Assembly: GCF_006385705.1 (NCBI RefSeq)
Contig: NZ_VFRQ01000010.1
Location: forward strand, 62,001 to 126,000
Length of the DNA stretch: 64,000 nt
Origin: Pontibacter mangrovi
GTDB lineage: Bacteria > Bacteroidota > Bacteroidia > Cytophagales > Hymenobacteraceae
Direction of reading: 5' to 3'
The notes beneath the pieces are model-generated. The model searched no databases. It was not told where the DNA came from and saw nothing but the letters and a program-made list of their open reading frames with translations. Shown one piece after another: positions 1-64,000 of this stretch. Position 1 is the first letter of the stretch, and every line of letters starts with the position of its first letter. The position numbers and the translations under genes are program-made.

Positions 1-9
1 TTGCGTAAC

Positions 10-75
10 ATGGCTGGTAGCCTCGTTACAAATCACATCCCGAAGGGATCCGGGACGAGGGCACTACTAATGGAT
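10..75. repeat. Intergenic hairpin repeat at left edge
   Basis: A nested hairpin with an outer stem CCTCGT (21-26) paired with ACGAGG (55-60) and an inner stem CCCG (39-42) with CGGG (51-54). It lies in the gene-free first 108 bases. It looks like a palindromic intergenic element, but there is no second copy in the window, so the family assignment is a guess. Confidence 0.35.
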
Positions 76-108
76 ACGCACGGCTGATTTGATGATGGTA
101 TAATTGCT

Positions 109-519
109 TTACTTGCTCACCTTTGCCTGGTTTATACTTTGGATGAGCTCGTTACGCCTCACGCTAATGAAATCATACGTTGTATCGGCATCGGTTATCA
201 GCTTTGCGCCGAACGGGAACAGCAGCATCCAGCCTTCCTTCCGAAAATCTTTTATTTCGCTTAAGCTGATGTGGGTGCTGTCTTTCCCGTTAATGTATAG
301 CCCTCCAAAGTATGGTGAGGGAACAAAAATCAGCTCATCTGACGTAGCGATAACCTTTCCCTTTGCCGGCCATACTTTAGGTGTTCTACGGTAGAGACTC
401 ACATCGCGCTGCTCCATCAGCACTTCTTTGCCTTTAGAAGTATTAAGAGGGCTCTTTGTAGCGCAGCCGGCAGCTATCAAGAGCAGTAGCAAAAGAATTC
501 CTGTTGATTTCACATCCAT
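109..519 (-). CDS. Small lipoprotein of unknown function
   Basis: A 136-residue protein with a lipoprotein signal: basic start, leucine-rich core, and a lipobox-like IAAGC placing the lipidated cysteine at residue 19. The mature part is mixed alpha/beta and contains a segment reading SLSEIKDFRKEGW followed by a short hydrophobic stretch (LLFPFGAK). I do not recognise the family. It probably sits in the cell envelope facing the periplasm or outside. The next gene upstream (652-1494) is on the same strand but is separated by about 130 bases containing a terminator, so this is likely its own transcription unit. Confidence 0.7.
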   Translation of the reverse strand: MDVKSTGILLLLLLIAAGCATKSPLNTSKGKEVLMEQRDVSLYRRTPKVWPAKGKVIATSDELIFVPSPYFGGLYINGKDSTHISLSEIKDFRKEGWMLLFPFGAKLITDADTTYDFISVRRNELIQSINQAKVSK

Positions 520-596
520 GGCTTATCCTTTACTTTTCCATACTTCAAACGATTGCACAAAACGGCATTTATACTTTCTTCTTCAGCAAGAAACTA

Positions 597-631
597 AAAG
601 TCCCGCCTCTGCTATGCCGGGGCGGGACTTT
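597..631 (-). terminator. Rho-independent terminator of the 652-1494 gene
   Basis: An 11-bp perfect stem (597-607 with 621-631, core GTCCCGCC/GGCGGGAC) followed on the minus strand by a T-rich stretch, 21 bases past the stop of the lipoprotein gene. The motif TATACTT abuts the stem. Confidence 0.75.
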
Positions 632-651
632 ATACTTTACCAAGAAACGGC

Positions 652-1494
652 TTATTGCGCTTTCAGCGTAAACGTTCTCTCCACGGTGTTGTATGGCCCC
701 GGAATTACGTTGCCGCTGTTGTCTATCAGCTCCAGTTTAATTTTGTTCTCCCCCATCGGCAAGCCTTCCATGATGTATGGCATCCAGCGATCGAGCATAA
801 ACTCGGTGCCGTTGATGGTGGCGCGTACTTTGTTGCCGCTCGGCGACAGGTCCGTGTTCACCAGGTAGAAGTCCAGCATCACCTTGCCAGTCTCGTTCGG
901 GCCTACATACTCGCCTTTCGGACGGCTGTAGAACATGTGCGGCGCGTTCAGGTCAAAGTCCAGCGACTCGGTGGGGCGGCCCACTGTAATTTTGCGCAAG
1001 TCGTAGGCGCCTTTGTGCTTCAGGCTCTCGTGGTAAGAACGAGAAATGAACGACAGGATCACGTGCTCGCCCTCCGGAATGTCTTTGGTGAACTCCGTTT
1101 CGTAATGAGCCGTGTATGGCTGGTTATCAACAATGTTATGGATGTGCTGCCCTTGCTGCGAGTTGGCCATGTGCTCGGCGTTAGAGTGCGGCGTCATGCG
1201 CGTCAGCTCAAAGTTAGACAGCGAGTAGTCGAACTGAACCGGGCCCGGCTCCACCACGCCTCCGGCCGGCGGCGTGTTCAGGCGCAGCTGCGACTCAGGG
1301 TATTTCTGTGAGTTATCGAAGGCATACACACTCAGGCCATTCTTCGTCATCACAGCCCCTGCAGGGGTTGGCCCACCCACTACAGTCGATTCGGCAGGCG
1401 TTTGGTTTTCTGCTTCCTGTGTCTGGCGTGCTGTATCACAGGCCGTAAAGCCTAGCATAAGGGTTGAAGCCAGCAATAGGTACGTTTTTTTCAT
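652..1494 (-). CDS. Putative lipoprotein with two beta-sandwich-like repeats
   Basis: A 280-residue protein with a lipoprotein signal (lipobox GFTAC, cysteine 19), a low-complexity linker rich in E, T, P and A to about residue 45, then two similar segments. The first (about 75-180) has QGQHIHNIVDNQPY and GEHVILSFISRSYHESLK; the second (about 186-278) has GKVMLDFYLVNTDL and MGENKIKLELID. The pattern resembles bacterial DUF4399-like or Ig-like lipoproteins in Bacteroidota, sometimes labelled phosphopeptide-binding, but that label is not supported by any motif I can see. Probably exposed in the periplasm or on the surface. Monocistronic. Confidence 0.7.
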   Translation of the reverse strand: MKKTYLLLASTLMLGFTACDTARQTQEAENQTPAESTVVGGPTPAGAVMTKNGLSVYAFDNSQKYPESQLRLNTPPAGGVVEPGPVQFDYSLSNFELTRMTPHSNAEHMANSQQGQHIHNIVDNQPYTAHYETEFTKDIPEGEHVILSFISRSYHESLKHKGAYDLRKITVGRPTESLDFDLNAPHMFYSRPKGEYVGPNETGKVMLDFYLVNTDLSPSGNKVRATINGTEFMLDRWMPYIMEGLPMGENKIKLELIDNSGNVIPGPYNTVERTFTLKAQ

Positions 1495-1595
1495 GTATCT
1501 TTCGTTAGGTTAGCAATGAAGCTAATTTAGTAATAATTCTTTGTATATTGCGAAGTACGTGAATATCACGATAAAGTATACGCGAAAAATTATAT

Positions 1596-4762: not shown

Positions 4763-5788
4763 TTACTCCGCCGTGGCGGCTTTGGTGTCTCTGTAGATAA
4801 ACTCTTGGTTGTTCTTGAACCAGTCGAAGGTGCGCTGCAACCCCTCCTCTATTCGTACCTGCGGATCATACTTGAGGAGGCGCTGCGCCTTGGAGATATC
4901 GGCCAGGCTGTCGCGAATGTCGCCTGCGCGGTCGGGACCATGCACCGGCTCCACGTCAGCCCCGGCGGTCTCTTTCAGGATGTTATACATCTGCAGCAGC
5001 GAGGTGCGGTCGCCCACGGCAATGTTGTAGACCTGGTTCACCGCCTCCGGGTTCTCCACCAGCGCTGCTCTAATATTGGCCTCTACGCAGTTCTCCACAA
5101 AGGTGAAGTCACGCGTCTGCCCCCCGTCGCCGTTGATTTTCGGCGGGCGGTTGTGGATCAGCGCGTCGATGAACAAAGGTATCACGGCCGCATAGGCACC
5201 GTTCGGGTCCTGCTTTGGGCCGAAGATGTTGAAGTAGCGCAGCCCGATGATCTCCATGCCGTAGGTCTTGCCGAACACATCGGCGTACAGCTCATTGGCG
5301 TACTTGGTCACGGCGTAAGGCGAGAGCGGCTTTCCGATGCGGTCCTCCACCTTCGGCAGCTCCTTGCTGTCTCCGTAGGTAGAGGAAGAAGCCGCGTATA
5401 CAAAGCGCTTGATGTTATTCTCTTTGGCCGCGGTGAGCATGTTCACAAAGCCGCCCACGTTCACGTCGTTGCTCGTGATCGGGTCGTTGATGCTTCTAGG
5501 CACCGAGCCCAGCGCCGCCTGGTGCAGCACCACGTCCATACCCTGGCAGGCGTCCATGCAAGTCTGCACGTTGCGGATGTCGCCCTCCACCAGCTCGAAA
5601 GCCGGGTTATCCAGGAACTCCTCAATATTCTTGCGGTAGCCGTTGGAGAAGTTGTCCAGCACGCGCACTTTGCCTGCCTTATACTTCAGAAGGTACTCCA
5701 CCAGGTTAGAGCCGATAAAGCCGGCACCGCCTGTTACTAAAAACGACAGCCCGTCGAGGGGCTGTTCGTGAAATGGGGAATCATACAT
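4763..5788 (-). CDS. wbpP: UDP-GlcNAc(A) C4-epimerase, WbpP/TviC type
   Basis: A 341-residue extended short-chain dehydrogenase. The NAD-binding motif is TGGAGFIGSN (residues 19-28); the active site has AASSSTYG with S135/S136 and SPYAVTK with Y158 and K162. Segments such as RYFNIFGPKQDPNGAYAAVIP are typical of WbpP/TviC epimerases acting on N-acetylated UDP-sugars rather than GalE. Paired with the tviB-like dehydrogenase five genes up, it would interconvert UDP-GlcNAcA and UDP-GalNAcA. The C4-epimerase assignment is family-based; exact substrate is inferred. It lies 19 bases downstream of rmlB. Confidence 0.85.
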   Translation of the reverse strand: MYDSPFHEQPLDGLSFLVTGGAGFIGSNLVEYLLKYKAGKVRVLDNFSNGYRKNIEEFLDNPAFELVEGDIRNVQTCMDACQGMDVVLHQAALGSVPRSINDPITSNDVNVGGFVNMLTAAKENNIKRFVYAASSSTYGDSKELPKVEDRIGKPLSPYAVTKYANELYADVFGKTYGMEIIGLRYFNIFGPKQDPNGAYAAVIPLFIDALIHNRPPKINGDGGQTRDFTFVENCVEANIRAALVENPEAVNQVYNIAVGDRTSLLQMYNILKETAGADVEPVHGPDRAGDIRDSLADISKAQRLLKYDPQVRIEEGLQRTFDWFKNNQEFIYRDTKAATAE

Positions 5789-5807
5789 ATTGTTGCTGAA
5801 TCTATAC

Positions 5808-6857
5808 TTACCGATGCGTGTACTGTTGCTCGTAATAACTTTGGTAGTTGCCCGATGTTACGTTCTCGAGCCACTCCGGGTTCTCCAGGTACCAGTCTAT
5901 AGTCTTGCTCAGGCCCTGCTCAAATGTCACCGACGGCTTCCAGCCCAGTTCGTCCATCAGCTTAGAGGAGTCAATGGCGTAGCGCAGGTCGTGGCCGGCG
6001 CGGTCCTTCACAAAGGTGATGAGCTTTCTGGAATGCCCCTTCTCACGTCCCAGCTTCTCGTCCATCTGGTCGCAGAGCAAGTGGATCAGGTCCAGGTTCT
6101 TCCACTCGTTCACGCCGCCGATGTTGTAGGTGTCGCCCACCCTGCCCTCATGGAAGATCACGTCGATGGCCCGGGCGTGGTCCAGCACGTAGAGCCAGTC
6201 GCGCACATTCTCACCCTTGCCATACACGGGCACCGGACGCTCGTTCTTGATATTGTTGATCGCCAGCGGAATCAGCTTCTCAGGGAAGTGGTTCGGGCCG
6301 TAGTTGTTCGAGCAGTTGGAGATCTTGATCGGCAGCCCGTAAGTATGGTACCAGGCGCGCACGAAATGGTCCGAAGAGGCCTTGGAGGCAGAGTATGGGG
6401 AACGCGGGTCGTAGGCCGTCTCCTCGGTAAACAGGCCGTCCTCGCCCAGCGAGCCGTACACCTCATCGGTGGAGATGTGGTAGAACAGGTGCCTGCCCAG
6501 GTCCTCCGCCCAATGCTTGCGGGCCGCATTCAGCAGGTTCACCGTGCCGATGACGTTCGTCTGCACGAAAGCCAGCGGGTCGGATATGGAGCGGTCCACG
6601 TGCGACTCGGCCGCCAGGTGGATCACGGCATCGAATTTATACTCCGAGAAGATCTCCTCCAGGAAGCCCGCGTCCACGATGTCGCCCTTCAGGAAAGTAT
6701 AGTTCTCCTTGTCCTCGATGTCCGACAGGTTCTGCAGGTTGCCCGCGTAGGTCAGCTTGTCGAGGTTGTAGATCTGGTACTCCGGGTATTTGGTAACGAA
6801 CAGGCGCACCACATGCGAGCCGATGAAGCCCGCTCCGCCCGTAATCAATATTTTCAT
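5808..6857 (-). CDS. rmlB: dTDP-glucose 4,6-dehydratase
   Basis: Converts dTDP-glucose to dTDP-4-keto-6-deoxyglucose. From ATG 6857 the protein is 349 residues, the normal length: TGGAGFIGSH at 6-15, the catalytic T130-D131-E132 (ISTDEVYG), and Y155/K159 (SPYSASK). An upstream in-frame ATG at 6899 would put 14 odd residues before MKILITGG and overlap galE, so I reject it. The start codon is two bases past the galE stop, indicating translational coupling. Two copies of the AAGTAT word span the junction. Confidence 0.95.
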   Translation of the reverse strand: MKILITGGAGFIGSHVVRLFVTKYPEYQIYNLDKLTYAGNLQNLSDIEDKENYTFLKGDIVDAGFLEEIFSEYKFDAVIHLAAESHVDRSISDPLAFVQTNVIGTVNLLNAARKHWAEDLGRHLFYHISTDEVYGSLGEDGLFTEETAYDPRSPYSASKASSDHFVRAWYHTYGLPIKISNCSNNYGPNHFPEKLIPLAINNIKNERPVPVYGKGENVRDWLYVLDHARAIDVIFHEGRVGDTYNIGGVNEWKNLDLIHLLCDQMDEKLGREKGHSRKLITFVKDRAGHDLRYAIDSSKLMDELGWKPSVTFEQGLSKTIDWYLENPEWLENVTSGNYQSYYEQQYTHR

Positions 6858-6859
6858 AC

Positions 6860-7894
6860 TTATACTTTTTCTTTCTGAAGCGATACTTGCCAATCCCAAG
6901 CGCTTTTCATGGCCTCCTCCAGGGTACTGGTGGTTTTAAAACCCAGTTCCTGGGTTGATTTGGTCACGTCGGCATAGATCTTTGGCACATCACCGGCGCG
7001 GCGCGGCCCTACTTTATAGTTCAGCTTCTGCCCGGATGCTTTTTCAAAAGCTTTAATGGCTTCTAACACGGTATTACCTGTACCAGTGCCTACGTTAAAG
7101 AATTCTATACTTTGAGCTTTACCCTGCAGCAGACGCTCTACCGCCACCACATGGGCTTTGGCCAGGTCCACCACATGGATGTAATCGCGGATGCAGGTGC
7201 CGTCAGGCGTGTCATAGTCATCGCCAAACACGGTAAGCTCTTTACGTATGCCAGCGGCCGTTTGAGTAATGAATGGCACCAGGTTGTTCGGCACGCCCAG
7301 CGGCAGCTCTCCGATTTTGGCAGTCGGGTGTGCCCCGATCGGGTTAAAGTAGCGCAGGGCTGTGGCTTTGATGTGGCTGTTGCCGCTGTTAGCTAGGTCC
7401 GTCAGGATCTCCTCGCATACTTTTTTGGTGTTGCCGTACGGCGAGTTCGCCTTCTGCACCGGTGTTTCTTCGGTTACGGGCAGCTGGTCCGGAATGCCAT
7501 ACACGGTGCACGACGAGGAAAATACCAGGTTCGGCACCTTACACTCCTCCATCACCTGCAGCAGCGCCACCAGCGAACCCACGTTGTTATGGTAGTATTT
7601 CAGCGGCTCCGACACCGACTCGCCCACCGCCTTATAGGCCGCAAAATGAATGACGCCTTTAACATTCTGTTCCTGCTCAAACACCTGGCGCAGGGCCTCA
7701 GTATCTGTGCAGTCGATGCGGTGGCACGGGATTTCGCGGCCAAGTATGGCGGCGATACCCTCCAGTGCGCTCTCTTCGGAGTTAGAGAAGTTGTCGATGA
7801 TCACCGGCTCATAGCCCGCCTCCACCAGCTCCACTACGGTGTGGGAGCCGATGTAGCCGGCGCCTCCGGTTACCAGTATCTTTTCCTTTGCCAA
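6860..7894 (-). CDS. galE: UDP-glucose 4-epimerase
   Basis: Interconverts UDP-glucose and UDP-galactose. A 344-residue GalE-type protein: TGGAGYIGSH (9-18), SSSCTVYG (about 126-133), catalytic Y153 and K157 (SPYGNTK), then LRYFNPIGAHPTAKIGE and the substrate-binding region GTCIRDYIHVVDLA, which is diagnostic for GalE. It sits between tviB (12-base gap) and rmlB (2-base gap) in the nucleotide-sugar operon. Confidence 0.95.
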   Translation of the reverse strand: MAKEKILVTGGAGYIGSHTVVELVEAGYEPVIIDNFSNSEESALEGIAAILGREIPCHRIDCTDTEALRQVFEQEQNVKGVIHFAAYKAVGESVSEPLKYYHNNVGSLVALLQVMEECKVPNLVFSSSCTVYGIPDQLPVTEETPVQKANSPYGNTKKVCEEILTDLANSGNSHIKATALRYFNPIGAHPTAKIGELPLGVPNNLVPFITQTAAGIRKELTVFGDDYDTPDGTCIRDYIHVVDLAKAHVVAVERLLQGKAQSIEFFNVGTGTGNTVLEAIKAFEKASGQKLNYKVGPRRAGDVPKIYADVTKSTQELGFKTTSTLEEAMKSAWDWQVSLQKEKV

Positions 7895-7906
7895 TTGTCT
7901 ACAGGT

Positions 7907-9196
7907 TTATAAGCTTGTATATTCTATGTCCTTAATTTTGCTGCGGAAGATGCCTTTCAGGTCCACCAGAATCGGGCTGCCGTTCATGATCGACTTGAAG
8001 TAGCTCTCGTCCAGCTCCATGTAGGCTTTGTGCGGCACGGCCACCACCACGGCGTCGTAGTCTTTGCCGGCTTCCTCTACCAGGCCAAAGCCATACTCGT
8101 GCTGCAGCTCCTCTGAGTTAGCGTAAGGGTCTACCACCTCCACGTTCACGCCAAAGCTCTGCAGCTCCCGGATCACGTCTACTACTTTCGAGTTACGGAT
8201 GTCCTCCACGTTCTCCTTAAACGTAGCGCCCATCACCAGCACCTTTGTCTGCGAGATGTTCTTGCCGCGCATGATCATCATCTTCACCAGCTTGTTGGCG
8301 ATGTGCGCGCCCATGGTGTCGTTGGTGGTGCGGCCGCTCAGGATCACTTTGGCATCGTAGCCCAGCGCCTTTGCTTTGTAGGTCAGGTAGTAGGGGTCCA
8401 CGCCGATGCAGTGGCCGCCTACCAGGCCCGGGGAGAAGCGCAGGAAGTTCCACTTGGTACCGGCAGCTTCCAGCACTTCGTAGGTGTTAATGTTCATCCT
8501 GTCGAAAATGATGGACAGCTCGTTCATCAGGGCGATGTTGAGGTCGCGCTGCGTGTTCTCGATTACTTTTGCCGCCTCAGCCACTTTAATGGAAGAAGCA
8601 CGGTGTACGCCGGCATCAATCACCAGCTCGTATACTTTCGCAATCTCCTCCGCCGACTCCGCATCGCTGCCAGAAACCACCTTTACGATCTTGGCCAGAG
8701 TATGCTCCTTATCGCCTGGGTTGATACGCTCCGGAGAGTAACCTACTTTAAAGTCCACGCCGAACTTTAGGCCCGACTCGCGCTCCAGCACCGGCACGCA
8801 ATCCTCCTCCGTGCAGCCAGGATATACTGTCGATTCAAACACCACAAAATCACCTTTCTTCAGCACCTTACCTACCGTGGTAGAGGCAGAAAGTAGCGGC
8901 TTCAGGTCCGGCTGGGCGTGGTTATCTATTGGCGTTGGCACGGCCACAATAAAGAACTTTGCCTCGCGCAACACGTCCAGACTGTCGGTAAACTCGATGT
9001 CAGCACCCTCAAACTCGCTGCTCTCCAACTCCCCGCTCGGGTCGATGTTATTGCGCATCATCTCCACACGCTTCGAGTTGATATCGAACCCGATCACTTT
9101 TACTTTTTTAGCGAAGGCAAGGGCAATAGGCAGTCCTACGTAGCCTAAGCCAATCACGGCAAGTTTGGCTTCTTTGTTGAGTATTTCCTGGTACAC
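7907..9196 (-). CDS. tviB: UDP-N-acetylhexosamine 6-dehydrogenase
   Basis: A 429-residue UDP-glucose/GDP-mannose dehydrogenase-family enzyme with GLGYVGLP at 16-23, the conserved ESTVYPGCTE, and the catalytic cysteine C263 in GGHCIGVDPYY. The central and C-terminal domains (GAHIANKLVKMM, GATFKENVEDIRNSK) match TviB/WbpA/Cap5L enzymes that oxidise UDP-GlcNAc or UDP-GalNAc to the uronic acid. The wbpP-like epimerase in the same operon supports an N-acetylhexosaminuronic acid product. First gene of the operon. Two -7-like CAAAnnTA sites (complement TAnnTTTG) lie upstream at 9329-9336 and 9340-9347 without a good -33 box. Confidence 0.88.
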   Translation of the reverse strand: MYQEILNKEAKLAVIGLGYVGLPIALAFAKKVKVIGFDINSKRVEMMRNNIDPSGELESSEFEGADIEFTDSLDVLREAKFFIVAVPTPIDNHAQPDLKPLLSASTTVGKVLKKGDFVVFESTVYPGCTEEDCVPVLERESGLKFGVDFKVGYSPERINPGDKEHTLAKIVKVVSGSDAESAEEIAKVYELVIDAGVHRASSIKVAEAAKVIENTQRDLNIALMNELSIIFDRMNINTYEVLEAAGTKWNFLRFSPGLVGGHCIGVDPYYLTYKAKALGYDAKVILSGRTTNDTMGAHIANKLVKMMIMRGKNISQTKVLVMGATFKENVEDIRNSKVVDVIRELQSFGVNVEVVDPYANSEELQHEYGFGLVEEAGKDYDAVVVAVPHKAYMELDESYFKSIMNGSPILVDLKGIFRSKIKDIEYTSL

Positions 9197-9396
9197 GATA
9201 TGTATAGTTTAAATCTGTTACAGTTTTTACAAGTATAGCTAAGTCAGCCATTTTGACAACAAAACGGCAATTTATACTTTCCATTGCACTTCCTTGTTCT
9301 TTTGGAAAGCAGCGGAATCGCATTTAGCCAAATTTACCACAAAAGTACAATTTTAACATTAACTTCGGATAATTTAGGCTGATTTTAACATCTACC

Positions 9397-10251
9397 TTAC
9401 TTCTTGCCGCACACGATGCGGTTTTTCCCGAAAAGATCCGCCACGACCTGCGCCTCGGCAAAGCCTGTTTGCAGCAACAGCTCCTTTACCTCCTGCCCGT
9501 AGCGCTCGTTTATCTCGAAGTATACTTTGCCGCCTTTTTTCAGTAGCTGCAGCGCCACCTCGGTTATTCTTCTGTAGTATTTCAGCGGGTCCTGATCGGG
9601 TACGAACAGGGCCAGGTGCGGCTCATACTGCAGCACGTTCTCCCGCATCTGCCGCTTTTCCTCCTCCAGCACATAAGGCGGGTTGCTCGTGATGATGTCC
9701 AGTGAAGCGGGTTTTATACTTGGCACCGGCTCAAAAATATCCGCCTGCAGCCACTCCACCGGCAGTTTATACTTGGCCGCGTTGGCCCGCGCCACCTCCA
9801 GCGCCCCCTCCGACACCTCCAGCCCGTAGACTTGAGCGTTTGGCAAATTGGCCGCCAGCGCCAGCGGAATGCAGCCGCTCCCGGCGCAAATGTCCAGCAC
9901 CTGCAGCCCCTGCTGCTCTTTGTGCTCCCGCAGCACCAGGTCCACCAGCTCCTCTGTCTCCGGCCTCGGAATCAGCACCCGCTCATCCACCTGCAGCTCC
10001 AGGCCATAAAAGTGCGCCACGCCCAGCACATACTGCACCGGTTCCTGCCGCTGTAGCCGCTGCACCATCTGCGCTAGCTGCGCCTCCTGCGCCGGGCTTA
10101 CCTCCTCCTGCTGCGCCAGCATGAGATGCATGCGGTTTTTCTGCAGCACGTGCTCCAGCACCAGTTGGGCTATACTTCCCGCCTCGGGCTCGGGGTAAGC
10201 CGCTTTTATACTTTCCCGGATGTGCTGCTGCACTTGCTGTATGGTTGCCAC
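9397..10251 (-). CDS. prmC: Release factor glutamine N5-methyltransferase
   Basis: Methylates the glutamine of the GGQ motif in peptide-chain release factors. A 284-residue protein with the N-terminal helical domain, LIPRPETEELV at 93-103, the SAM-binding loop DICAGSGCIPLA (120-131) and the catalytic N190-PPY193. The C-terminus has YFEINERYGQEV. Transcribed divergently from ribD, with about 200 bases between them and about 200 free bases before the tviB operon downstream. Confidence 0.95.
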   Translation of the reverse strand: MATIQQVQQHIRESIKAAYPEPEAGSIAQLVLEHVLQKNRMHLMLAQQEEVSPAQEAQLAQMVQRLQRQEPVQYVLGVAHFYGLELQVDERVLIPRPETEELVDLVLREHKEQQGLQVLDICAGSGCIPLALAANLPNAQVYGLEVSEGALEVARANAAKYKLPVEWLQADIFEPVPSIKPASLDIITSNPPYVLEEEKRQMRENVLQYEPHLALFVPDQDPLKYYRRITEVALQLLKKGGKVYFEINERYGQEVKELLLQTGFAEAQVVADLFGKNRIVCGKK

Positions 10252-10275
10252 GTCTATATTTTCTGTTGATTTCGG

Positions 10276-10291
10276 TATCTTTGCAAAAGTA
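10276..10291. promoter_or_regulatory. Back-to-back -7 elements between prmC and ribD
   Basis: The 16-mer TATCTTTGCAAAAGTA is TAnnTTTG joined to its mirror image CAAAnnTA, so one site offers a Bacteroidota -7 element in each direction between divergent genes. I find no convincing -33 TTG at 19-21 bases on either side, so this is only a candidate. Confidence 0.35.
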
Positions 10292-10295
10292 AGGT

Positions 10296-10452
10296 TTAAG
10301 ATTTGAAGATGTGGAAATTTGGAGATGTGAAGATGAGTTTGCCTCCCAGTTTAGCATCACATCAACTTTCTAACCTTCTAACTATGTAAGCCGCAAAGTA
10401 TTGCAGCTCTACAACTCTTAAACGCTCTAACTCCTAAACTCTCTAACTCTGA
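10296..10452. repeat. Low-complexity short-period repeats before ribD
   Basis: About 150 bases made of imperfect short units: GAAGATGTGGAAATTTGGAG-like at 10300-10336, then units of the type CTCTAACTCCTAAAC at 10415-10452. Similar CTAACTC-type runs occur at about 17630-17690 and 22191-22213. Within it, 10388-10416 is a degraded copy of the GTAGAGACGC palindrome family. Confidence 0.55.
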
Positions 10453-10454
10453 CC

Positions 10455-11483
10455 ATGTCTGACGAACGATACATGCGACGCGCACTGGAGCTGGCCCGGC
10501 TAGGCAGCGGCTATACTTCCCCGAACCCGATGGTGGGCTGTGTGGTGGTGCACGAGGGGCAGATTATCGGCGAGGGCTGGCACCAGAAGTATGGCGGCCC
10601 GCATGCCGAAGTGAATGCCATTGCCGCCGTGGAGGACAAGCGCCTGCTGCCCCAAAGCCGTGTGTACGTAACGCTGGAGCCCTGCTCGCACTACGGCAAA
10701 ACCCCGCCCTGCGCCGACCTGCTCATCAGCCATGGTGTGAAGGATGTGGTGATCTGCAACACCGATCCGAACCCGCTCGTGGCTGGCCGTGGCATCAAAA
10801 AACTTTTTGAAACCGGAGCCCAGGTAAAGGTGGGTGTGCTGGAGGAGGAAGGGCTGGAGCTGAACAAGCGTTTCTTCACGTTTCATACTAGAAAGCGGCC
10901 GTTCATACTTTTAAAGTGGGCCGAGACGGCAGACGGTTTTATAGCGGCGGCCAATTACCAACAGGAGCAGATCAGCGGAAAGCTGGCGCAGCGGCTGGTG
11001 CACAAGTGGCGCTCTGAGGAGCAAGCTATACTGGTGGGTAGCCGCACCGCTTTGTATGATAACCCGCGCCTGAACACGCGCCTGTGGAGCGGCCAAAACC
11101 CGCTGCGCCTGGTAATAGACAAGCAACTGCTGCTGCCCCCGCACCTGCACCTCTTCGACGGAAGCCAGCCAACGGTGGTTTATACTTACAAGCATCAGGA
11201 AGATCGGGACAATTTATACTTTGTGCAGCTACGGGAGGACGAACCCATACTTCCGCAGATCATGGAGGACCTGCACCGCCGCAACGTGCTGTCGGTAATG
11301 GTGGAGGGGGGCACGTTTCTGCTGGAGAGCCTGCTGCAGGCCAACCTCTGGGATGAGGCTCTGGTGTTCAAGAATCTGCATAAAACACTTCCGGCCGGCA
11401 TTAAAGCGCCCGGTATGGCATACGGACAGCTGCAAAGTATACAAACCTTATGCGCAGACCAGCTGTTGCACTACCGGCGTTAG
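10455..11483 (+). CDS. ribD: Riboflavin deaminase/reductase RibD
   Basis: Bifunctional riboflavin enzyme: the N-terminal cytidine-deaminase-like domain deaminates diaminohydroxyphosphoribosylaminopyrimidine, the C-terminal domain reduces the product. Zinc site: H50-A-E52 and C77...C86 (LEPCSHYGKTPPC). NPMVGCVVV at 24-32 is characteristic. The reductase part begins near residue 150 (RPFILLKWAETADGFIA). Full length at 342 residues. Other rib genes are not in the window. It contains about seven copies of the AAGTATR word in several frames. Confidence 0.95.
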   Translation: MSDERYMRRALELARLGSGYTSPNPMVGCVVVHEGQIIGEGWHQKYGGPHAEVNAIAAVEDKRLLPQSRVYVTLEPCSHYGKTPPCADLLISHGVKDVVICNTDPNPLVAGRGIKKLFETGAQVKVGVLEEEGLELNKRFFTFHTRKRPFILLKWAETADGFIAAANYQQEQISGKLAQRLVHKWRSEEQAILVGSRTALYDNPRLNTRLWSGQNPLRLVIDKQLLLPPHLHLFDGSQPTVVYTYKHQEDRDNLYFVQLREDEPILPQIMEDLHRRNVLSVMVEGGTFLLESLLQANLWDEALVFKNLHKTLPAGIKAPGMAYGQLQSIQTLCADQLLHYRR

Positions 11484-11574
11484 TTGTTCGTTAATGGTTA
11501 TTCGTTTGAATACATTCATGCATCAGCGTTAGCATATTAAACAATTAGCACATTCACTCATTCAAAATAAAAAC
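11484..11574. other. AT-rich spacer between ribD and msrC
   Basis: Ninety bases of low-complexity sequence with ATT-rich units (GTTCGTTAATGG, AGCATATTAAAC, AATTAGCACATTC). No promoter matching TTTG-N19-TAnnTTTG seen. It resembles the decayed short-period spacer repeats elsewhere in the window. Confidence 0.4.
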
Positions 11575-12057
11575 ATGGCCGAATCCTTAATCATAGATAC
11601 AGACCTCAGCAAAGAAGAAAAGTATAAAGCGCTGCTGCCGCAGATAGAAGCTCTGACTGCCGGCGAAACCGACCTGATCGCGAACATCTCGAACCTGGTG
11701 GCCGCGTTGCGTCAGGGTATGGGCTTCTTTTGGGTTGGCGTATACTTTAACAAGGAGGGGCAGCTGGTGCTGGGTCCGTTCCAGGGGCCGATTGCCTGCA
11801 CACGCATCCCGTACCACAAGGGCGTTTGCGGCGCCTGCTACACCCAGCAAAAAACCATACTTGTGCCGGACGTGGAGGCCTTCCCGGGCCACATCGCCTG
11901 CAGCAGCGACTCTAAGTCGGAGATCGTACTGCCAGCTATGAAAGACGGCGAGGTAAAACTGGTACTGGACGTGGACAGCGACAAACTGAATGACTTCGAC
12001 GAGGTGGACCAAAAGTACCTGGAGCAGCTGATGAAGCTGGTGGAGAGCTGGTTTTGA
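11575..12057 (+). CDS. msrC: Free methionine-(R)-sulfoxide reductase
   Basis: A 160-residue single GAF-domain protein that reduces free Met-R-sulfoxide. Key cysteines are C75 (GPIACTRI), C85 (KGVCGAC) and C109 (GHIACSSDS), which line up with the three redox cysteines of the E. coli enzyme; C88 is additional. GMGFFWVGVYF (48-58) and LVLDVDSDKL (129-138) are typical fRMsr segments. Thioredoxin would be the reductant (family knowledge). Monocistronic, with a MITE-like element and a bidirectional terminator downstream. Confidence 0.92.
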   Translation: MAESLIIDTDLSKEEKYKALLPQIEALTAGETDLIANISNLVAALRQGMGFFWVGVYFNKEGQLVLGPFQGPIACTRIPYHKGVCGACYTQQKTILVPDVEAFPGHIACSSDSKSEIVLPAMKDGEVKLVLDVDSDKLNDFDEVDQKYLEQLMKLVESWF

Positions 12058-12073
12058 TTTCGTTATCAGTATT

Positions 12074-12298
12074 CCTGCCGCAAGTTTAGCGAAGCGTAAA
12101 TGTGGCTATACATGGGGCAAGTTTGTAATTTGCTTTATGCGTGAGCAGAAAAGTATACGTTAGCAGATTTATACTTTGCAGACTATTGCCAGAGGATAAA
12201 GTATAGCCGGAGCCTTTTAAACTTGCTTTTTAAAGCAAAGCAGTTGAAAACTACTGCCATACTTAGCCACATTTACGCTTCGCTAAACTTGCAGCAGG
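12074..12298. mobile_element. MITE-like element with 35-bp inverted termini
   Basis: The left terminus (12074-12108) and right terminus (12264-12298) are inverted repeats identical at 34 of 35 positions; both begin CCTGCYGCAAGTTTAGCG reading inward. The 155-base interior has no ORF and holds several AAGTATR words. No target-site duplication is obvious. No transposase is present in the window, so mobilisation in trans is inference. Confidence 0.6.
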
Positions 12299-12303
12299 CC
12301 AAA

Positions 12304-12327
12304 AGAGACGCAACGTATTGCGTCTCT
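12304..12327. repeat. AGAGACGCAA palindrome
   Basis: A perfect inverted repeat: AGAGACGCAA (12304-12313), four-base centre CGTA, TTGCGTCTCT (12318-12327). Related copies are at 17534-17561 and, degraded and inverted, at 10388-10416. It abuts the MITE-like element. Confidence 0.6.
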
Positions 12328-12346
12328 ACAAATCCTGATTTAGACA

Positions 12347-12383
12347 AAAAGGCCGCTGCAAGTATAAATTGCAGCGGCCTTTT
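12347..12383. terminator. Bidirectional terminator between msrC and psd
   Basis: A perfect 15-bp stem (12347-12361 with 12369-12383) flanked by A-run and T-run, serving convergent msrC (+) and psd (-). The seven-base loop GTATAAA, with the adjoining stem bases, makes a copy of the AAGTATA word. Confidence 0.85.
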
Positions 12384-12433
12384 CGTTTCTATTGTCTAAT
12401 ATCTAAAGTCTAGAATCTAGCATCTTCAAAAAC

Positions 12434-13117
12434 TTACCCAAACAAGGTCGGCGGTGGCGTTTTTAGCTGGGCGATAACAGTTTGCCCGCCTTTTGTCTTC
12501 TGCCCAAGCTCGACCTTTATTTCTGTATCCAGTGGCACAAAAATATCAACGCGCGAGCCGAATTTGATAAAGCCAAACTCCTCGCCCTGGCTCACTTCAT
12601 CGCCTTCGTTTACATACCACACAATGCGGCGCGCCATGGCGCCGGCAATCTGGCGGAAAAGCACCTCCGGGCCAGCCGTAGACTCCACCACCACGGTCGT
12701 GCGCTCGTTCTGCGTGCTCGACTTAGGGTGCCAGGCCACAAAATAATTGCCCGGGTGATACTTGAAATACTTTACAATGCCGGACACGGGGTTGCGCGTG
12801 ATGTGCACGTTTATCGGCGACATGAAGATGGAGATCTGCTTGCGCTTGTCCTTGAAGTACTCCGGCTCCTCCACTTCCTCAATCACCACCACCTTGCCGT
12901 CGGCCGGGGCAATCACCAGGTCATCGTGCAGCAGCAGCGTGCGGTAAGGGCTCCGGAAAAACTGCAGGATCAACAAAAAAAGAACGGCTGATACAGCTGA
13001 GAAAATTTTGTTAAAGGTACTATTCTCTGCATTAAAGTTGTAGAGCAACAGGTTCAGCACTACAAGCGCTAGCAATGTAAAAAATAATATCTTCCGTCCT
13101 TCCTTGTGAATCTTCAT
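12434..13117 (-). CDS. psd: Phosphatidylserine decarboxylase
   Basis: Converts phosphatidylserine to phosphatidylethanolamine at the inner membrane. From ATG 13117 (MKIHKEGRK, the usual start in this short Bacteroidota form) it is 227 residues; an in-frame ATG at 13153 would add 12. Two N-terminal membrane segments (about 9-30 and 38-54), APADGKVV, then INVHITRNPVSG and the self-cleavage site FGS (G187-S188), where the serine becomes the pyruvoyl group. It follows glutamate dehydrogenase; cdsA, two genes up, makes the CDP-diacylglycerol used upstream in the same pathway. Confidence 0.93.
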   Translation of the reverse strand: MKIHKEGRKILFFTLLALVVLNLLLYNFNAENSTFNKIFSAVSAVLFLLILQFFRSPYRTLLLHDDLVIAPADGKVVVIEEVEEPEYFKDKRKQISIFMSPINVHITRNPVSGIVKYFKYHPGNYFVAWHPKSSTQNERTTVVVESTAGPEVLFRQIAGAMARRIVWYVNEGDEVSQGEEFGFIKFGSRVDIFVPLDTEIKVELGQKTKGGQTVIAQLKTPPPTLFG

Positions 13118-13237
13118 TCTGTTTTGTGTTTGCCGCAGGTACTTTAAACTCATAAAAGCCCATCCAGTTACGTGGATGGGCTAAACCTGCTTCAAAAATA
13201 TGTAAACTTTCGGTTATTCTTCTAAAAAACTTATCTC

Positions 13238-14518
13238 TTAGAAGCCACCGCGGTACTTATACGTCATGGCTACTTTGTCGATGGCCACGATGTAGGCGGC
13301 AATACGCATCGGCACGTTATACTTCTGCGAAGCGGCATACACACGCTCGAAGGCTTCGTTCATGATGCGCTCGGCACGCTCGTTTACGCGCTCCAGCGTC
13401 CATTTAAAGCCCATGCGGTTTTGCACCCACTCAAAGTATGACACCGTTACGCCTCCCGAGTTGGCCAGGATGTCCGGCACCACCATGATGCCTTTTTCGT
13501 TGATGATATTATCGGCTTTGTAAGAAGTCGGGCCGTTGGCACCTTCCACAATCAGGCGGGCCTGGATCTTATCCACGTTGTGGATCGTGATCACGTCCTC
13601 TACGGCAGCTGGCACCAGCACATCCACTTTAGAGGTTAGCAGCTCGCTTGGGTCGTCCATCAGCTCAGCGCCTTTGAAGCCTTCCAGGCGGCCGTTGTGC
13701 GCGTTTTTATACTCAATGGCCTCTTCAATGTCGATGCCGTTGTCGTTCCAGTAAGCGCCGCTCACGTCGCTTACGCCCAGTATCTTCACGCCGCGCTCTG
13801 CCATTAGCTTGGCTGCCCAGGCACCCACGTTGCCAAAGCCCTGCACCGCGGCTGTAGACTTAGACGGGTCCATGCCCAGTTTTTCCATCGCAGCCATCGC
13901 CGATACCATTACGCCACGGCCTGTTGCCTCTACGCGGCCCAGCGAGCCGCCCAGCACCAGCGGCTTGCCTGTTACCACGGCATGCTCTGTAGAGCCTTTT
14001 GTCTTAGAGTATTCGTCCATCAGCCAGGCCATCTCGCGCGGTCCGGTGCCCATGTCCGGTGCCGGAATGTCGCGGTCCGGGCCGAAGATATCCACCAGTG
14101 AGGAAGTATAGGCCCTCGTCAAGCGTTCTATCTCACCGGCCGACATAGAATATGGGTCGCAGATGATGCCGCCCTTGGCACCACCGTACGGTATATCCAC
14201 CACGGCGCACTTCCAGGTCATCCAGGCGGCCAGGGCCTTCACCTCGTCCAGAAACACATCCGGAGCGTAGCGTACACCACCCTTAGACGGGCCCAGGATA
14301 GTGGAGTGAATTACGCGGTATCCCTCGAACACACGCACCTTACCGTCGTCCATGGTCACGGGCACGTTCACGATTACCTGACGCGTTGGAGACTTCAGCA
14401 CGTTGTATACTTCCTCATCCAACCCCAGCACCTCCGCCGCAATATTGAAACGCGACATCATCGACTCGAAAGGGTTTTCCTTATCCTTGATCGGAGCTGG
14501 CTCTTTGTATAACATCAT
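13238..14518 (-). CDS. gdhA: Glutamate dehydrogenase (ELFV family)
   Basis: Catalyses reversible oxidative deamination of glutamate to 2-oxoglutarate. A 426-residue ELFV dehydrogenase: GGVRYAPDV near 80, MTWKCAVVDIPYGGAKGG with K103 and catalytic K115, APDMGT with D155, and the Rossmann motif GFGNVG near 225. The ending RIAAYIVAIDKVAMTYKYRG is typical of the short hexameric GDH class. Cofactor preference is not readable by eye. It lies between cdsA and psd on the same strand, about 100 bases from each, as though inserted into a lipid gene set. One of three ELFV genes in the window. Confidence 0.9.
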   Translation of the reverse strand: MMLYKEPAPIKDKENPFESMMSRFNIAAEVLGLDEEVYNVLKSPTRQVIVNVPVTMDDGKVRVFEGYRVIHSTILGPSKGGVRYAPDVFLDEVKALAAWMTWKCAVVDIPYGGAKGGIICDPYSMSAGEIERLTRAYTSSLVDIFGPDRDIPAPDMGTGPREMAWLMDEYSKTKGSTEHAVVTGKPLVLGGSLGRVEATGRGVMVSAMAAMEKLGMDPSKSTAAVQGFGNVGAWAAKLMAERGVKILGVSDVSGAYWNDNGIDIEEAIEYKNAHNGRLEGFKGAELMDDPSELLTSKVDVLVPAAVEDVITIHNVDKIQARLIVEGANGPTSYKADNIINEKGIMVVPDILANSGGVTVSYFEWVQNRMGFKWTLERVNERAERIMNEAFERVYAASQKYNVPMRIAAYIVAIDKVAMTYKYRGGF

Positions 14519-14617
14519 CTACTCTTAAATTTATTGGTGAGTAATCAATCAGTGATATATTTCGCGGCAAAGTTGAGAATTATAGTTACAACCTCCTACG
14601 GGCAGGCTACAATTTTT

Positions 14618-15445: not shown

Positions 15446-15497
15446 GCAGTGGGCTTGCGCCGGATAGGGCGACGGGTGTTAGGGTTTAAGGGTCTGT

Positions 15498-16457: not shown

Positions 16458-16510
16458 AGGGAGAATTAGGTTTAATTGGCGTAAATTTACGCGAATAATT
16501 AAATTTTGCT

Positions 16511-17506: not shown

Positions 17507-17533
17507 AGAAGTAGAAAGGTAGAAAAGACGGGG

Positions 17534-17561
17534 TTGTAGAGACGCAATACTTTGCGTTTTT
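17534..17561 (+). terminator. Terminator after dusB from the GTAGAGACGC repeat
   Basis: A short hairpin ACGCAA (17542-17547), loop TACT, TTGCGT (17552-17557), then a T-run. It is a member of the repeat family at 12304-12327, here with the outer arm replaced by T residues so that it reads as a terminator. The centre contains ATACTT. Confidence 0.5.
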
Positions 17562-42808: not shown

Positions 42809-42860
42809 AGTATAAATGCTGTGGTGATAAGGGGTTGATGAAGTATAAACCCGCTCCTCC

Positions 42861-42890: not shown

Positions 42891-42898
42891 GTATAGGG

Positions 42899-48459: not shown

Positions 48460-48484
48460 TATACTTGTGCTATACTTTATACTT
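48460..48484. repeat. Cluster of three TATACTT words
   Basis: TATACTT at 48460-48466, 48471-48477 and 48478-48484 in an intergenic region, same orientation. Confidence 0.75.
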
Positions 48485-57777: not shown

Positions 57778-57782
57778 CCACC

Positions 57783-62197: not shown

Positions 62198-62356
62198 GTG
62201 TGTTACCAACTAACTTTTATACTATAAACCCTTTAATTTTGGCCTAAAGCTAAGACTAATCTTTATAAAATTCAAAACTAATATTAAAATTTATTTTAAT
62301 TCGATAAAGACTATCTATAGCTCAAATCACATGGAAACAGCCTTTTGTGCGTTTTT

Positions 62357-63496
62357 TTACTTAAGCATTTCTCTCGAAATTACTATTTTCTGTATTTCGG
62401 AGGTACCTTCATAAATTTGTGTGATCTTCGCATCACGCATCAAACGCTCCACATGGTATTCTTTCACGAAACCGTAACCACCGTGAATTTGCACTGCTTC
62501 CACAGTTGTTTCCATAGCCACTTTAGAGGCAAATAACTTGGCCATTGCGCCTGATTTGCCATAATCGCTGTGTGTATCTTTGTCATAAGCGGCCTGAAGG
62601 CATAACAGGCGCGCCGCCTCGATGTTCGTTGCCATATCAGCCAGTTTAAACTGTATGGCCTGATGTTTTGAAATCTCTACGCCAAAGGCCTTGCGTTCTT
62701 TAGAGTACTTCAAGGCCAGTTCCATAGCTCCGGAAGCAATGCCTAAAGCCTGCGAGGCAATGCCGATTCGTCCTCCAGCCAGTGTTTGCATCGCAAACTT
62801 AAATCCGAAGCCATCCTCTCCTATCCTATTCTCTTTTGGTACTTTTACGTCAGAAAACATTAAAGAGTGGGTATCTGAGCCACGAATTCCTAATTTATTT
62901 TCTTTTGGTCCAACTACAAATCCTTCCATTCCGCGCTCTACGATCAGCGCATTGATGCCACGATGCCCTTTTTCAGGGTAAGTTTGTGCAATTACAAGGT
63001 AAACGGAAGCGGTGCTGCCATTGGTGATCCAGTTCTTAGTACCATTCAGCAGGTAGTAGTCGCCCATGTCTTCGGCGGTGGTGCGCTGTGAGGTGGCGTC
63101 AGAACCGGCCTCTGGCTCTGACAGGCAGAAAGCGCCGATCATCTCGCCGGAAGTCAGCTTTGGCAGGTATTTCTGCTTCTGCTCCTCATTCCCGAACTTC
63201 TCCAGGCCCCAGCACACCAGTGAGTTGTTTACCGACATTACCACAGACGCAGAGGCATCTACCTTAGAGATTTCCTCCATCGCCAGCACATAGGAGATCG
63301 TGTCCATGCCGCCTCCGCCATACTTAGGGTCCACCATCATGCCTAAAAAGCCAAGCTCACCCATTTTCTTGATCTGCTCTGCCGGGAACTTCTGCTCCTC
63401 GTCGCGCTCAATTACGCCGGGCAAAAGCTCGGCTTGCGCAAACTCACGGGCGGCAGCTTGCACTGCCAAGTGCTCCTCTGTAAGTTGAAAGTTCAT
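62357..63496 (-). CDS. Short-chain acyl-CoA dehydrogenase
   Basis: 379-residue FAD enzyme of the butyryl-CoA dehydrogenase type. FGAFCLSEPEAGSD-like segment at about 121-134 (GAFCLSEPEAGSDATSQRT), the FAD/substrate region YLLNGTKNWITNG, QTLAGGRIGIASQALGIA, and the catalytic base E363 in YEGTSEIQ. First step of fatty-acid or branched-chain acyl-CoA oxidation, passing electrons to ETF. Own promoter; the iron-sulfur pair at 54963-57257 could be the quinone end of this chain. Confidence 0.94.
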   Translation of the reverse strand: MNFQLTEEHLAVQAAAREFAQAELLPGVIERDEEQKFPAEQIKKMGELGFLGMMVDPKYGGGGMDTISYVLAMEEISKVDASASVVMSVNNSLVCWGLEKFGNEEQKQKYLPKLTSGEMIGAFCLSEPEAGSDATSQRTTAEDMGDYYLLNGTKNWITNGSTASVYLVIAQTYPEKGHRGINALIVERGMEGFVVGPKENKLGIRGSDTHSLMFSDVKVPKENRIGEDGFGFKFAMQTLAGGRIGIASQALGIASGAMELALKYSKERKAFGVEISKHQAIQFKLADMATNIEAARLLCLQAAYDKDTHSDYGKSGAMAKLFASKVAMETTVEAVQIHGGYGFVKEYHVERLMRDAKITQIYEGTSEIQKIVISREMLK

Positions 63497-63541
63497 ATGC
63501 GTTATCTAAAGGATAAATTTTAACTAGTTTTAATTCCGGTA

Positions 63542-63573
63542 CAAAACTATGAAATTAAGTTGCATTTATTCAA
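63542..63573 (-). promoter_or_regulatory. Acyl-CoA dehydrogenase promoter
   Basis: Minus strand: TTG (63573-63571), 21 bases, TAGTTTTG (63549-63542). Predicted start near 63535, 39 bases before the ATG at 63496. Confidence 0.6.
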
Positions 63574-63658
63574 CCTGGTATACTAATAATTGTTGTGAAT
63601 CCTCCATAGTTTATGTATAATTTTATTTCAGAAGCTGCAGGAGAAGCACAAAAACACA

Positions 63659-63690
63659 GCGCCGCCAATGCAAAAGCAAAGGCGGCGCTT
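63659..63690 (-). terminator. Terminator of the zinc metallopeptidase gene
   Basis: Stem AGCGCCGCC (63659-63667) with GGCGGCGCT (63682-63690), 14-base loop, followed on the minus strand by GTGTTTTTGTG, about 27 bases past the stop codon. Confidence 0.7.
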
Positions 63691-63716
63691 GTACTGTCAG
63701 GCATATTTAATATTTC

Positions 63717-64000
63717 CTAGTCGCGGCGTCCCATCAGTAGCGACACATAGTACAACAGCGTAGCCAGTGAGCCAAGCGCAGCCACCACGTAGGTCAGGGC
63801 GGCCCATTTCAGGGCGTCTTTTGCCATGGCGTGCTCCTGTGTGGTTACTATGCCGCGGCGGTCTATCCAGGCAAGGGCGCGCTTGCTGGCGTCAAACTCC
63901 ACGGGCAGTGTAACAAAGCTGAAGATAGTGGTTAGGCCGAACAGCGCCACCCCGATGGCTAACGGAATAGGCGTTGTCTGTATCATAAGTATACCGATCA
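63717..64000 (-). CDS. Zinc metallopeptidase (YugP-like), C-terminal part
   Basis: The reading frame is open to the window edge (upstream of the ATG at 63986 it continues as IGIL), so this is the 3' part of a longer gene. The visible 94 residues hold two membrane helices and the family C-terminal pattern IFSFVTLPVEFDASKRALAWI ... AKDALKWAALTYVVAALGSLATLLYYV, typical of YugP-like membrane zinc peptidases. The HEXXH catalytic motif would lie outside the window. Confidence 0.8.
   Translation of the reverse strand, partial: IGILMIQTTPIPLAIGVALFGLTTIFSFVTLPVEFDASKRALAWIDRRGIVTTQEHAMAKDALKWAALTYVVAALGSLATLLYYVSLLMGRRD

Follow-up and report, generated by a model that had tools for sequence, protein, structure and literature searches.

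To our knowledge, dialect-bearing DNA uptake sequences are known only from Neisseriaceae and Pasteurellaceae, both of which use pili. The Pasteurellaceae word (USS) is a different, longer motif, and uptake in this family is pilus-based. Chi and KOPS sites are likewise short asymmetric words with many copies. The uptake sequences of Neisseriaceae (DUS) are described as short asymmetric words in thousands of copies, whose clade dialects lie a few letters apart around a fixed core; kingDUS reaches 5,918 copies in 2.4 Mb, and Simonsiella muelleri carries two dialects in one genome (PMC3630211). USS are reported to be over-represented genome-wide and linked to natural transformation (PMC7811141, PMC12616744). 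Cyanobacterial HIP1 and the alternate HIPs are very frequent too, with alternate words in relatives and near absence in some species (PMC4390886). Finally, Riemerella anatipestifer is described as transforming without known pilus proteins, for which it needs ComEC, DprA, RecA, ComF, and a three-HHH-domain protein, and transformation is reduced in its YifB (ComM) mutants; the term "DNA uptake sequence" is absent from the main text of that paper (PMC8459023).

The word AAGTATR, which pervades the window (the whole 64,000-nucleotide stretch analyzed here; Table 1) and the genome carrying it, resembles DUS in its thousands of copies, its asymmetry, its clade dialects differing by a few letters, and its similar density, and resembles USS in being over-represented genome-wide. 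It differs from DUS in belonging to a member of the Bacteroidota, in being shorter, in the absence of pilus or type II secretion ATPases from all 50 genomes of the genus, and in that its uptake role is putative. In a literature search for AAGTATR or for uptake sequences of Pontibacter or Bacteroidota, which covered a minority of subscription journals and no bioRxiv preprints, none of the papers listed was such a report.

An earlier note on the window had claimed about 195 copies of AAGTAT/ATACTT, an extension to AAGTATR in about 95% of them, and larger gaps of 1.3 to 2 kb. The recount agrees: 197 copies are present (81 on the forward and 116 on the reverse strand), 186 of which (94%; 77 forward, 109 reverse) read AAGTATR, comprising 125 AAGTATA and 61 AAGTATG, and the widest gap between AAGTATR copies spans 1,972 bases. 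The spacing, described there as fairly even, is instead close to random, the gaps averaging 343 bases (sd 376), with close co-oriented pairs in excess. Against these 186 copies, 11 are expected from base composition, 15 from a second-order and 37 from a third-order Markov model, the last value being raised because the underlying 4-mers are already inflated by AAGTATR itself. The five-word cluster lies inside or at the edge of the gap between the called genes at 42188-42808 and 42899-43420. The palindrome AAGTATACTT, formed where two words on opposite strands overlap, occurs 25 times in a 724-kb set drawn from the genome carrying the window and a related genome (G129).

Table 1. Features of the window and their coordinates.
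Feature	Position	Strand	Details
Whole window	1..64000	both	186 AAGTATR copies, about 1 per 344 bases; contig C2:62001-126000 of the genome carrying the window (G000)
Syntenic block	4763..18588	.	Its genes yielded the species tree and allowed words to be compared site by site
AAGTATACTT, two overlapping opposite-strand words	9518..9527	.	Further copies at 21794, 24063, 30818
Glutamate dehydrogenase gene	13238..14518	-	Pfam PF00208/PF02812
Three co-oriented words (41006, 41013, 41026)	41006..41032	-	From the position list
Five-word cluster (42808+, 42841+, 42869+, 42880-, 42889+)	42808..42895	.
Three co-oriented words (48460, 48471, 48478)	48460..48484	-	From the position list

The over-representation of AAGTATR in the window and in the genome is real, and the signal held up in a genome-wide count as well as in a codon-shuffled control. 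The genome, which belongs to Pontibacter in agreement with the family Hymenobacteraceae guessed in the earlier note, contains 10,809 copies (4.88 Mb, 35 contigs), versus 1,085 of the pattern read backwards. In the 192 genes called across 284 kb of this genome, 406 copies were observed (214 sense, 192 antisense) versus 45.2 after codon shuffling, and each of the six reading frames is enriched 4.8- to 35-fold over this control. In coding DNA the word exceeds a local Markov model 9.9-fold, and between genes 7.7-fold, with the reversed word near expectation in both (32 vs. 44 and 30 vs. 24, respectively). An artifact of codon usage or composition is excluded by the codon shuffling together with the six-frame and intergenic enrichment; a local repeat or mobile element is excluded by the genome-wide counts and by a transect through G129, where 20 samples of 20 kb hold 35-66 words each. 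The earlier view that the sense strand is not obviously favored has to be qualified by a mild sense bias in the 724 kb of the two genomes (597 same vs. 448 opposite). The codon-shuffled control leans the same way (29.6 vs. 15.7).

A word of this kind might be bound by an abundant nucleoid or regulatory protein and be under selection at thousands of places. The raw density is indeed higher between genes than within them (3.3 vs. 1.9 per kb), and of the word pairs less than 100 bp apart 322 have the same and 217 the opposite orientation; such close co-oriented pairs would suit a DNA-binding protein. However, the composition-corrected enrichment is no higher in intergenic DNA, and there is no tie to promoters: intergenic words are found at 4.23 per kb between convergent, 3.52 between divergent, and 4.15 between co-directional genes, with only a modest orientation preference relative to genes. 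We therefore regard this explanation as hardly credible. Alternatively, the word could serve a chromosomal helicase-nuclease or translocase as a Chi- or KOPS-like site, as its asymmetry, its density, and its presence on both strands would allow. This is very improbable, since replication-strand skew is absent from the 4.98-Mb contig of G129, where the 20 samples gave 266/238 forward/reverse words at positive and 210/235 at negative GC skew, and since the word is not associated with an AddB-like protein: the gene for the AddB-like PD-(D/E)XK protein is open in 50/50 genomes, whether word-bearing or wordless. Moreover, the loss of such a site in eight species of a single genus would be unexpected.

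Within Pontibacter the word exists in dialects. Among the 50 genomes compared, AAGTATR (dialect A) is strong in 20 and weak in one, CAGGTATAGC (dialect B) occurs in 12 genomes of one clade and weakly in another genome (G115), and CAACTATAG (dialect C) in four; three genomes have both an old and a new word, one has another word, and eight have none. In unbiased 7-mer counts, which rest mostly on 20 kb per genome, AAGTATA, AGGTATA, or AACTATA rank among the top words and exceed the Markov expectation about 13- to 18-fold in their own group. Genome-wide, AGGTATA numbers 5,748-9,303 copies in the 12 genomes of the B clade versus 720-3,132 in the other 38. The dialects follow the species tree, except for the weak G115, which falls outside the B clade: AAGTATR sits on deep branches and is probably ancestral, and B and C each form one clade. 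The three genomes carrying A and C words together (G055, G018, and G033) adjoin the pure C genomes on the tree and parallel the two-dialect genome of S. muelleri. The comparison with relatives left the signal standing. Outside the genus, 68 loci of 4-21 kb contain no word of like count and enrichment save the palindromic CCTAGG and, more weakly, TCCGGA. Of 20 samples covering further genera in the family, one (G030) had no usable letters and the remaining 19 gave the same picture.

By means of the glutamate dehydrogenase gene, the orthologous region was located in 46 further Pontibacter genomes. Words are also conserved at orthologous positions: in pairwise comparisons of A genomes, 4,982 of 9,734 (51%) are retained, compared to 17% of AT-rich 7-mers and 10% (46/440) of reversed words. 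In five no-word genomes, the A word is kept at 133 of 2,575 A sites (5%), compared to 13% for AT-rich 7-mers. The B word occupies 10% of A sites in B genomes and 1.4% in no-word genomes. Within the syntenic block, each genome contributes 8-26 sites to the differences in retention, which are weak by themselves; G052 belongs to the four genomes of lowest retention by a narrow margin (0.13 vs. 0.14).

Dialects and near absence in some species, together with high genome-wide frequency and alternate words in relatives, are also features of HIPs. By analogy, a methyltransferase of matching specificity combined with biased mismatch or short-patch repair could create words from near-misses, and the dialects would then track methyltransferase changes, much as the alternate HIP words of cyanobacteria are described as tied to different methyltransferases (PMC4390886). 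However, HIPs are GC-rich palindromes with methyltransferases, whereas AAGTATR is AT-rich and non-palindromic (its reverse complement, YATACTT, is a different word), and its near-misses are not depleted. The summed observed/expected ratio of the 20 one-mismatch forms is 1.29 in A genomes and 1.15 in seven no-word genomes for AAGTATA, and 0.91 and 0.83, respectively, for the one-mismatch forms of AAGTATG. Hence no precursor word has been consumed, which also speaks against Vsr-type or other directed conversion. Since, in addition, word density tracks the integrity of comM among the strong A genomes (see below), a HIP-like origin is decidedly unlikely.

The competence gene set of Pontibacter resembles the one used by Riemerella for transformation without pili. 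Matches to ComEC, DprA, and ComM were found in 50/50 genomes each, with broken copies in a few, so that the check for competence genes was positive in the no-word genomes as well. One 311-aa protein of Pontibacter contains three HHH_3 stretches; counted from the listed rows, the gene for this HHH_3-repeat protein (304-346 aa) is open in 49 of 50 genomes and broken in one. All four genes are open in the eight no-word genomes, therefore comEC, dprA, comM, and the HHH gene alone do not bring about the word. By contrast, the pilus/type II secretion ATPase (PF00437) was detected in 0/50 genomes by a search that was positive in 13 of 14 control genomes. The type IV pilus machinery of the neisserial ComP/DUS or Pasteurellaceae USS type thus appears to be missing, a type IV pilus receptor is excluded, and a pilin receptor of the ComP type is not to be expected. 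The Riemerella surface gene RA0C_RS04920 contains the domain DUF5689, which was rejected as a receptor candidate because its occurrence in 22/50 genomes is unrelated to the word; homologs of the Riemerella surface genes were not identified in Pontibacter. In our own reading of the sequences, the 12 DUF5689 proteins of 413-450 aa appear to be lipoproteins encoded beside SusD-like genes, and the 10 of 1,099-1,299 aa look like secreted nucleases.

Word density is linked to the state of comM. Five of the 20 strong A genomes have a broken comM and carry 1.20-2.00 words per kb, and the other 15 carry 2.07-3.26 (exact one-sided p = 6e-5, for an association spotted once the search results were in and densities derived from rounded genome sizes); this comparison did not include the weak carrier G131 or the three mixed genomes. 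In a regression on the tree, comM state gave p = 6e-5 for density and p = 0.012 for the word/control ratio. G087, in which comEC, dprA, comM, and the HHH gene are all broken, has the second-lowest density and the lowest ratio (5.3). Other genomes, like the eight no-word ones, speak against an uptake role: G046 has broken comEC, dprA, and comM yet shows no decay, keeping 16/16 consensus B words and a high B count (9,303), and G131, whose comM is open, carries only 4,061 words in its 4.9 Mb. The sisters G085 (comM broken, 2.00 per kb) and G008 (open, 2.07 per kb) are nearly equal in density, and the word/control ratio is higher in G085 (8.1) than in G008 (7.1).

Dialects, retention at orthologous sites, and the link to broken comM point to transformation. 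From the four classes offered by the earlier note, this evidence favors an uptake sequence, and the Chi/KOPS, HIP1-like, and protein-bound-site readings are weakened. We assign a probability of roughly 0.7 to AAGTATR being the equivalent of a DNA uptake sequence in Pontibacter, used in pilus-free transformation by a putative receptor. We infer that uptake is the selected step, that the receptor reads the word, and that molecular drive spreads it. A putative cell-surface or early-periplasmic DNA receptor, belonging to an apparatus without type IV pili, would prefer word-bearing fragments of dead kin at uptake; by analogy to Riemerella, it may perhaps consist of a TonB-dependent transporter and a surface lipoprotein. 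Incoming DNA would cross ComEC as a single strand and then recombine with the chromosome with the help of DprA, RecA, and ComM. Every round would overwrite wordless alleles with word-bearing ones, so that words would build up on both strands wherever a site permits and would be maintained there by this drive. A shift in receptor specificity would slowly rewrite the genome, from AAGTATR to AGGTATAG in one clade and to AACTATAG in another, genomes with both words being transitional, and words would decay once recombination of incoming DNA ends.

Alternatively, the word might act within transformation but after uptake, where a ComEC/HHH-linked nuclease, a helicase, or a RecA loader could read it and thereby stimulate recombination or protect incoming strands. 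All links between the word and comM or competence fit this equally, and ComM itself acts at the recombination stage. We nevertheless consider it unlikely, since DprA, ComM, and the AddB-like protein are also present in no-word genomes and since the established example of dialect-bearing words acts at uptake (PMC3630211).

If AAGTATR is an uptake sequence, it adds a third case that lies in another phylum and works without pili, implying that the trait evolves repeatedly, and provides an independent replicate for the dispute between selection and molecular drive. We lean towards the wider view that Pontibacter, and so the Bacteroidota, evolved its own pilus-independent, sequence-specific uptake, and that at least three dialects arose as receptor changes rewrote thousands of sites in each genome, isolating clades sexually. 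Ancestral, switching, switched, and lost states coexist in one genus, which makes receptor specificity, decay rates, and dialect-dependent recombination barriers testable. An uptake role would moreover open a way into how transforming DNA crosses the outer membrane in Bacteroidota and offer a practical key to the genetics of the genus, as donor DNA could be given the word.

Some stretches are poor in words. Two accessory-looking 20-kb stretches of the genome carrying the window hold 8 and 7 words (15 in 40 kb), compared to 30-71 in 11 other samples of this genome. Elements inserted in comM contain five words in 9.5 kb, and the flanks beside them six in 4.5 kb.

The 64-kb window contains 186 copies of AAGTATR (125 AAGTATA and 61 AAGTATG), where a second-order Markov model predicts approximately 15, and the entire P. 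mangrovi genome (4.88 Mb in 35 contigs) has 10,809 copies versus 1,085 of the reversed word, i.e., the pattern read backwards. This confirms the massive over-representation that the earlier note had perceived in the window, including its estimate of about 195 AAGTAT (197 counted). The signal also persists when codon usage is controlled for: 192 genes (284 kb) of this genome carry 406 copies as opposed to 45.2 after shuffling of synonymous codons, with enrichment in all six frames. Relative to a local Markov model, enrichment is 9.9-fold within genes and 7.7-fold in intergenic DNA, the reversed word being close to expectation; copies thus do lie in every frame and between genes, as had been proposed. 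Flank preferences are mild, with T disfavored directly before and after the 7-mer and A preferred before it. The spacing described as fairly even is instead approximately random, with a surplus of close pairs (<100 bp) in the same orientation (322 vs. 217 opposite; 724 kb of P. mangrovi and a second genome, G129). Co-orientation of neighboring words was seen both inside and outside genes in these data. A function as Chi-type site has low weight, as no replication-strand skew was found along the 4.98-Mb contig of G129, where 20 samples of 20 kb contained 35 to 66 words each.

The glutamate dehydrogenase encoded in the window shares 91–96% identity with Pontibacter proteins and no more than 79% with those of Hymenobacter, which places the window in Pontibacter. 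Among 50 Pontibacter genomes including P. mangrovi, the ratio of AAGTATR to the reversed word lies between 0.9 and 14.9. Outside the genus, 100 genomes from five further genera in the family give ratios of about 0.75 to 1.5, except for one genus (g3) with about 1.3 to 2. Unbiased 7-mer counts in the other 49 genomes, made on 20 kb each (5.4 to 16 kb in four), trace the lack of AAGTATR in half of the genus to the use of different words. The comparison with relatives suggested earlier yields a word with dialects within the genus. AGGTATA (extended CAGGTATAGC) is the word of twelve genomes, with 5,748 to 9,303 copies genome-wide compared to 720 to 3,132 in the remaining genomes (n = 38); AACTATA (extended CAACTATAG) is that of four, and stands side by side with AAGTATA in three (G018, G033, and G055). 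Common to the three dialects is A..TATR, letters 2 and 3 being variable. Naming the dialects A (AAGTATR), B (AGGTATA), and C (AACTATA), the 50 genomes comprise 20 strong A (P. mangrovi included), one weak A (G131), 12 B plus the weak-B G115, four C, three that mix A and C, one with the palindrome TATATA (G002), and eight with none (G113, G013, G109, G073, G095, G028, G127, and G125), where A and B were counted genome-wide and C was assigned from sampled stretches, G028 and G127 were classified from a different region than the remaining genomes, and G125 from 5.4 kb together with its A and B totals for the genome. The C word is weakly enriched in one of the eight, G073 (34 vs. 7.5 in 60 kb).

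In a species tree built from nine syntenic-block proteins of 47 genus genomes and two outgroups (49 rows; in three further genus genomes the anchor gene was not recovered at the search threshold), the 12 B genomes form one clade, from which the weak-B genome G115 is placed apart, and the C genomes are nested in a clade whose remaining members are the mixed genomes. The tree requires a minimum of eight state changes. Since the deep branches carry A, the A word is probably ancestral.

Codon alignments of 11 syntenic genes permitted a site-by-site comparison. Between A genomes, the A word is kept at the same site in 4,982 of 9,734 cases, compared to 17% for AT-rich 7-mers and 46/440 for the reversed word, which bears out conservation at orthologous positions. 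In five no-word genomes only 133 of 2,575 A sites (5%) still carry it, vs. 13% for AT-rich 7-mers, and the B word occupies 10.1% of A sites in B genomes vs. 1.4% in no-word genomes. Words are thus held where the system is alive, fade where it is absent, and are partly rewritten in place upon dialect change. A methylation-linked repair bias that makes the word has low weight: hand-summed observed/expected values of one-mismatch forms are 1.29 (AAGTATA) and 0.91 (AAGTATG) in A genomes and 1.15 and 0.83 in seven no-word genomes, and this lack of depletion for either word argues against repair-type conversion from a single precursor.

The search for competence genes in carriers proved positive, ComEC, DprA, and ComM/YifB each having matches in 50/50 genomes. 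Among the matches listed, an HHH_3-repeat protein of 304–346 aa is open in 49 genomes and broken in one. The P. mangrovi homolog (311 aa, three HHH_3 stretches) resembles a protein required for transformation in Riemerella, which is transformed without known pilus proteins; the main text of the Riemerella study nowhere mentions a DNA uptake sequence by that term (PMC8459023). ATPases of type II/IV secretion and pili (PF00437) were found in 0/50 genomes, although the same search was positive in 13 of 14 control genomes. The word system would work like the neisserial and Pasteurellaceae uptake systems, but it is not classifiable under them, because these possess a pilus that is missing in the 50 genomes.

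The comM frame is interrupted in six genomes (see table). In G087 comEC, dprA, and the HHH gene are broken as well, and in G046 comEC and dprA; the ComEC frame of G119 is shorter (561 aa) without internal stop.

Interruptions of comM in Pontibacter genomes
Genome	Locus	Break
G064	L283	foreign sequence from codon 238
G071	L284	foreign sequence from codon 238
G052	L286	foreign sequence from codon 372
G085	L287	foreign sequence from codon 372
G046		frame change
G087		stop

Within the 20 strong A genomes (G131 and the three mixed genomes excluded), the five with broken comM have 1.20 to 2.00 words/kb and the 15 others 2.07 to 3.26, an association noticed post hoc and based on rounded genome sizes (exact one-sided p 6e-5 by density, 0.0012 by ratio; tree-aware regression, p 6e-5 and 0.012, respectively). 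In an inner clade of 12 genomes, the four with broken comM show the four lowest control-subtracted retention values (p 0.002). There are exceptions: G046 retains 16/16 consensus words despite its broken comM, G131 is word-poor though comM is open, and the comM-broken G085 barely differs from G008. All eight no-word genomes keep comEC, dprA, comM, and the HHH gene, so the word-reading factor would be something other than these four. The foreign parts at codon 238, from two species, are dissimilar to each other, that of G071 including an SMC-like ATPase gene; those at codon 372, from two more species, resemble one another and encode tyrosine integrases (PF00589). The gene looks like an integration hotspot, and these insertions resemble in their target the AbaR islands reported from comM of Acinetobacter (PMC7508600).

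In most respects visible in sequence, the pattern matches uptake sequences: the words are numerous, occur in dialects around a constant core, coexist in mixed genomes, are retained at orthologous sites, and are linked to competence. Cells would then preferentially take up word-bearing DNA, and a receptor would read the word. Of the classes initially considered (uptake sequence, Chi/KOPS, HIP1-like word, protein-binding site), the uptake-like one is favored, and the others are retained as rivals of low weight, among them a chromosomal protein binding the word; low weight is also given to action at a later step of transformation. A literature search, conducted largely outside subscription journals and preprints, found no report of AAGTATR or of an uptake sequence in Pontibacter or Bacteroidota.

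The starts of the P. mangrovi contigs C4 and C5 (L169 and L170, 20 kb each) hold 8 and 7 words; eleven other samples of this genome hold 30 to 71 each. These two stretches encode TonB-dependent receptors, an M16 peptidase, and a transposase of the IS110 type, and were probably acquired or belong to a second replicon; for 8.9 kb of L169, a plasmid collection gave no near match. At the comM inserts, foreign parts contain 5 words in 9.5 kb and adjoining host parts 6 in 4.5 kb. No-word genomes average 5.9 Mb (n = 8; 5.2–6.5 Mb) vs. 4.6 Mb for the 39 genomes strong in A, B, or C (3.8–5.5 Mb; p 7e-6, ignoring kinship on the tree).

Other words are also over-represented. CAGGTC/GACCTG occurs 92 times in the window (34 expected, third-order model), but does not rank among the top 12 6-mers in 220 kb from other parts of the genome. 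The palindrome CCTAGG (62 in L017 of Solirubrum and 56 in L222 of G004, vs. about 8 expected) and ACCTAGG (20 vs. 2.5 in L046 of Hymenobacter crusticola) are perhaps a further, HIP-like genome word in the family. In G002 (L136 and L271, 40 kb), TATATA reaches 152 vs. 34 and CTATATA 43 vs. 5.6; of 14 other genomes compared, 10 have fewer TATATA than expected, and the count is elevated in G115 (22 vs. 6.1).
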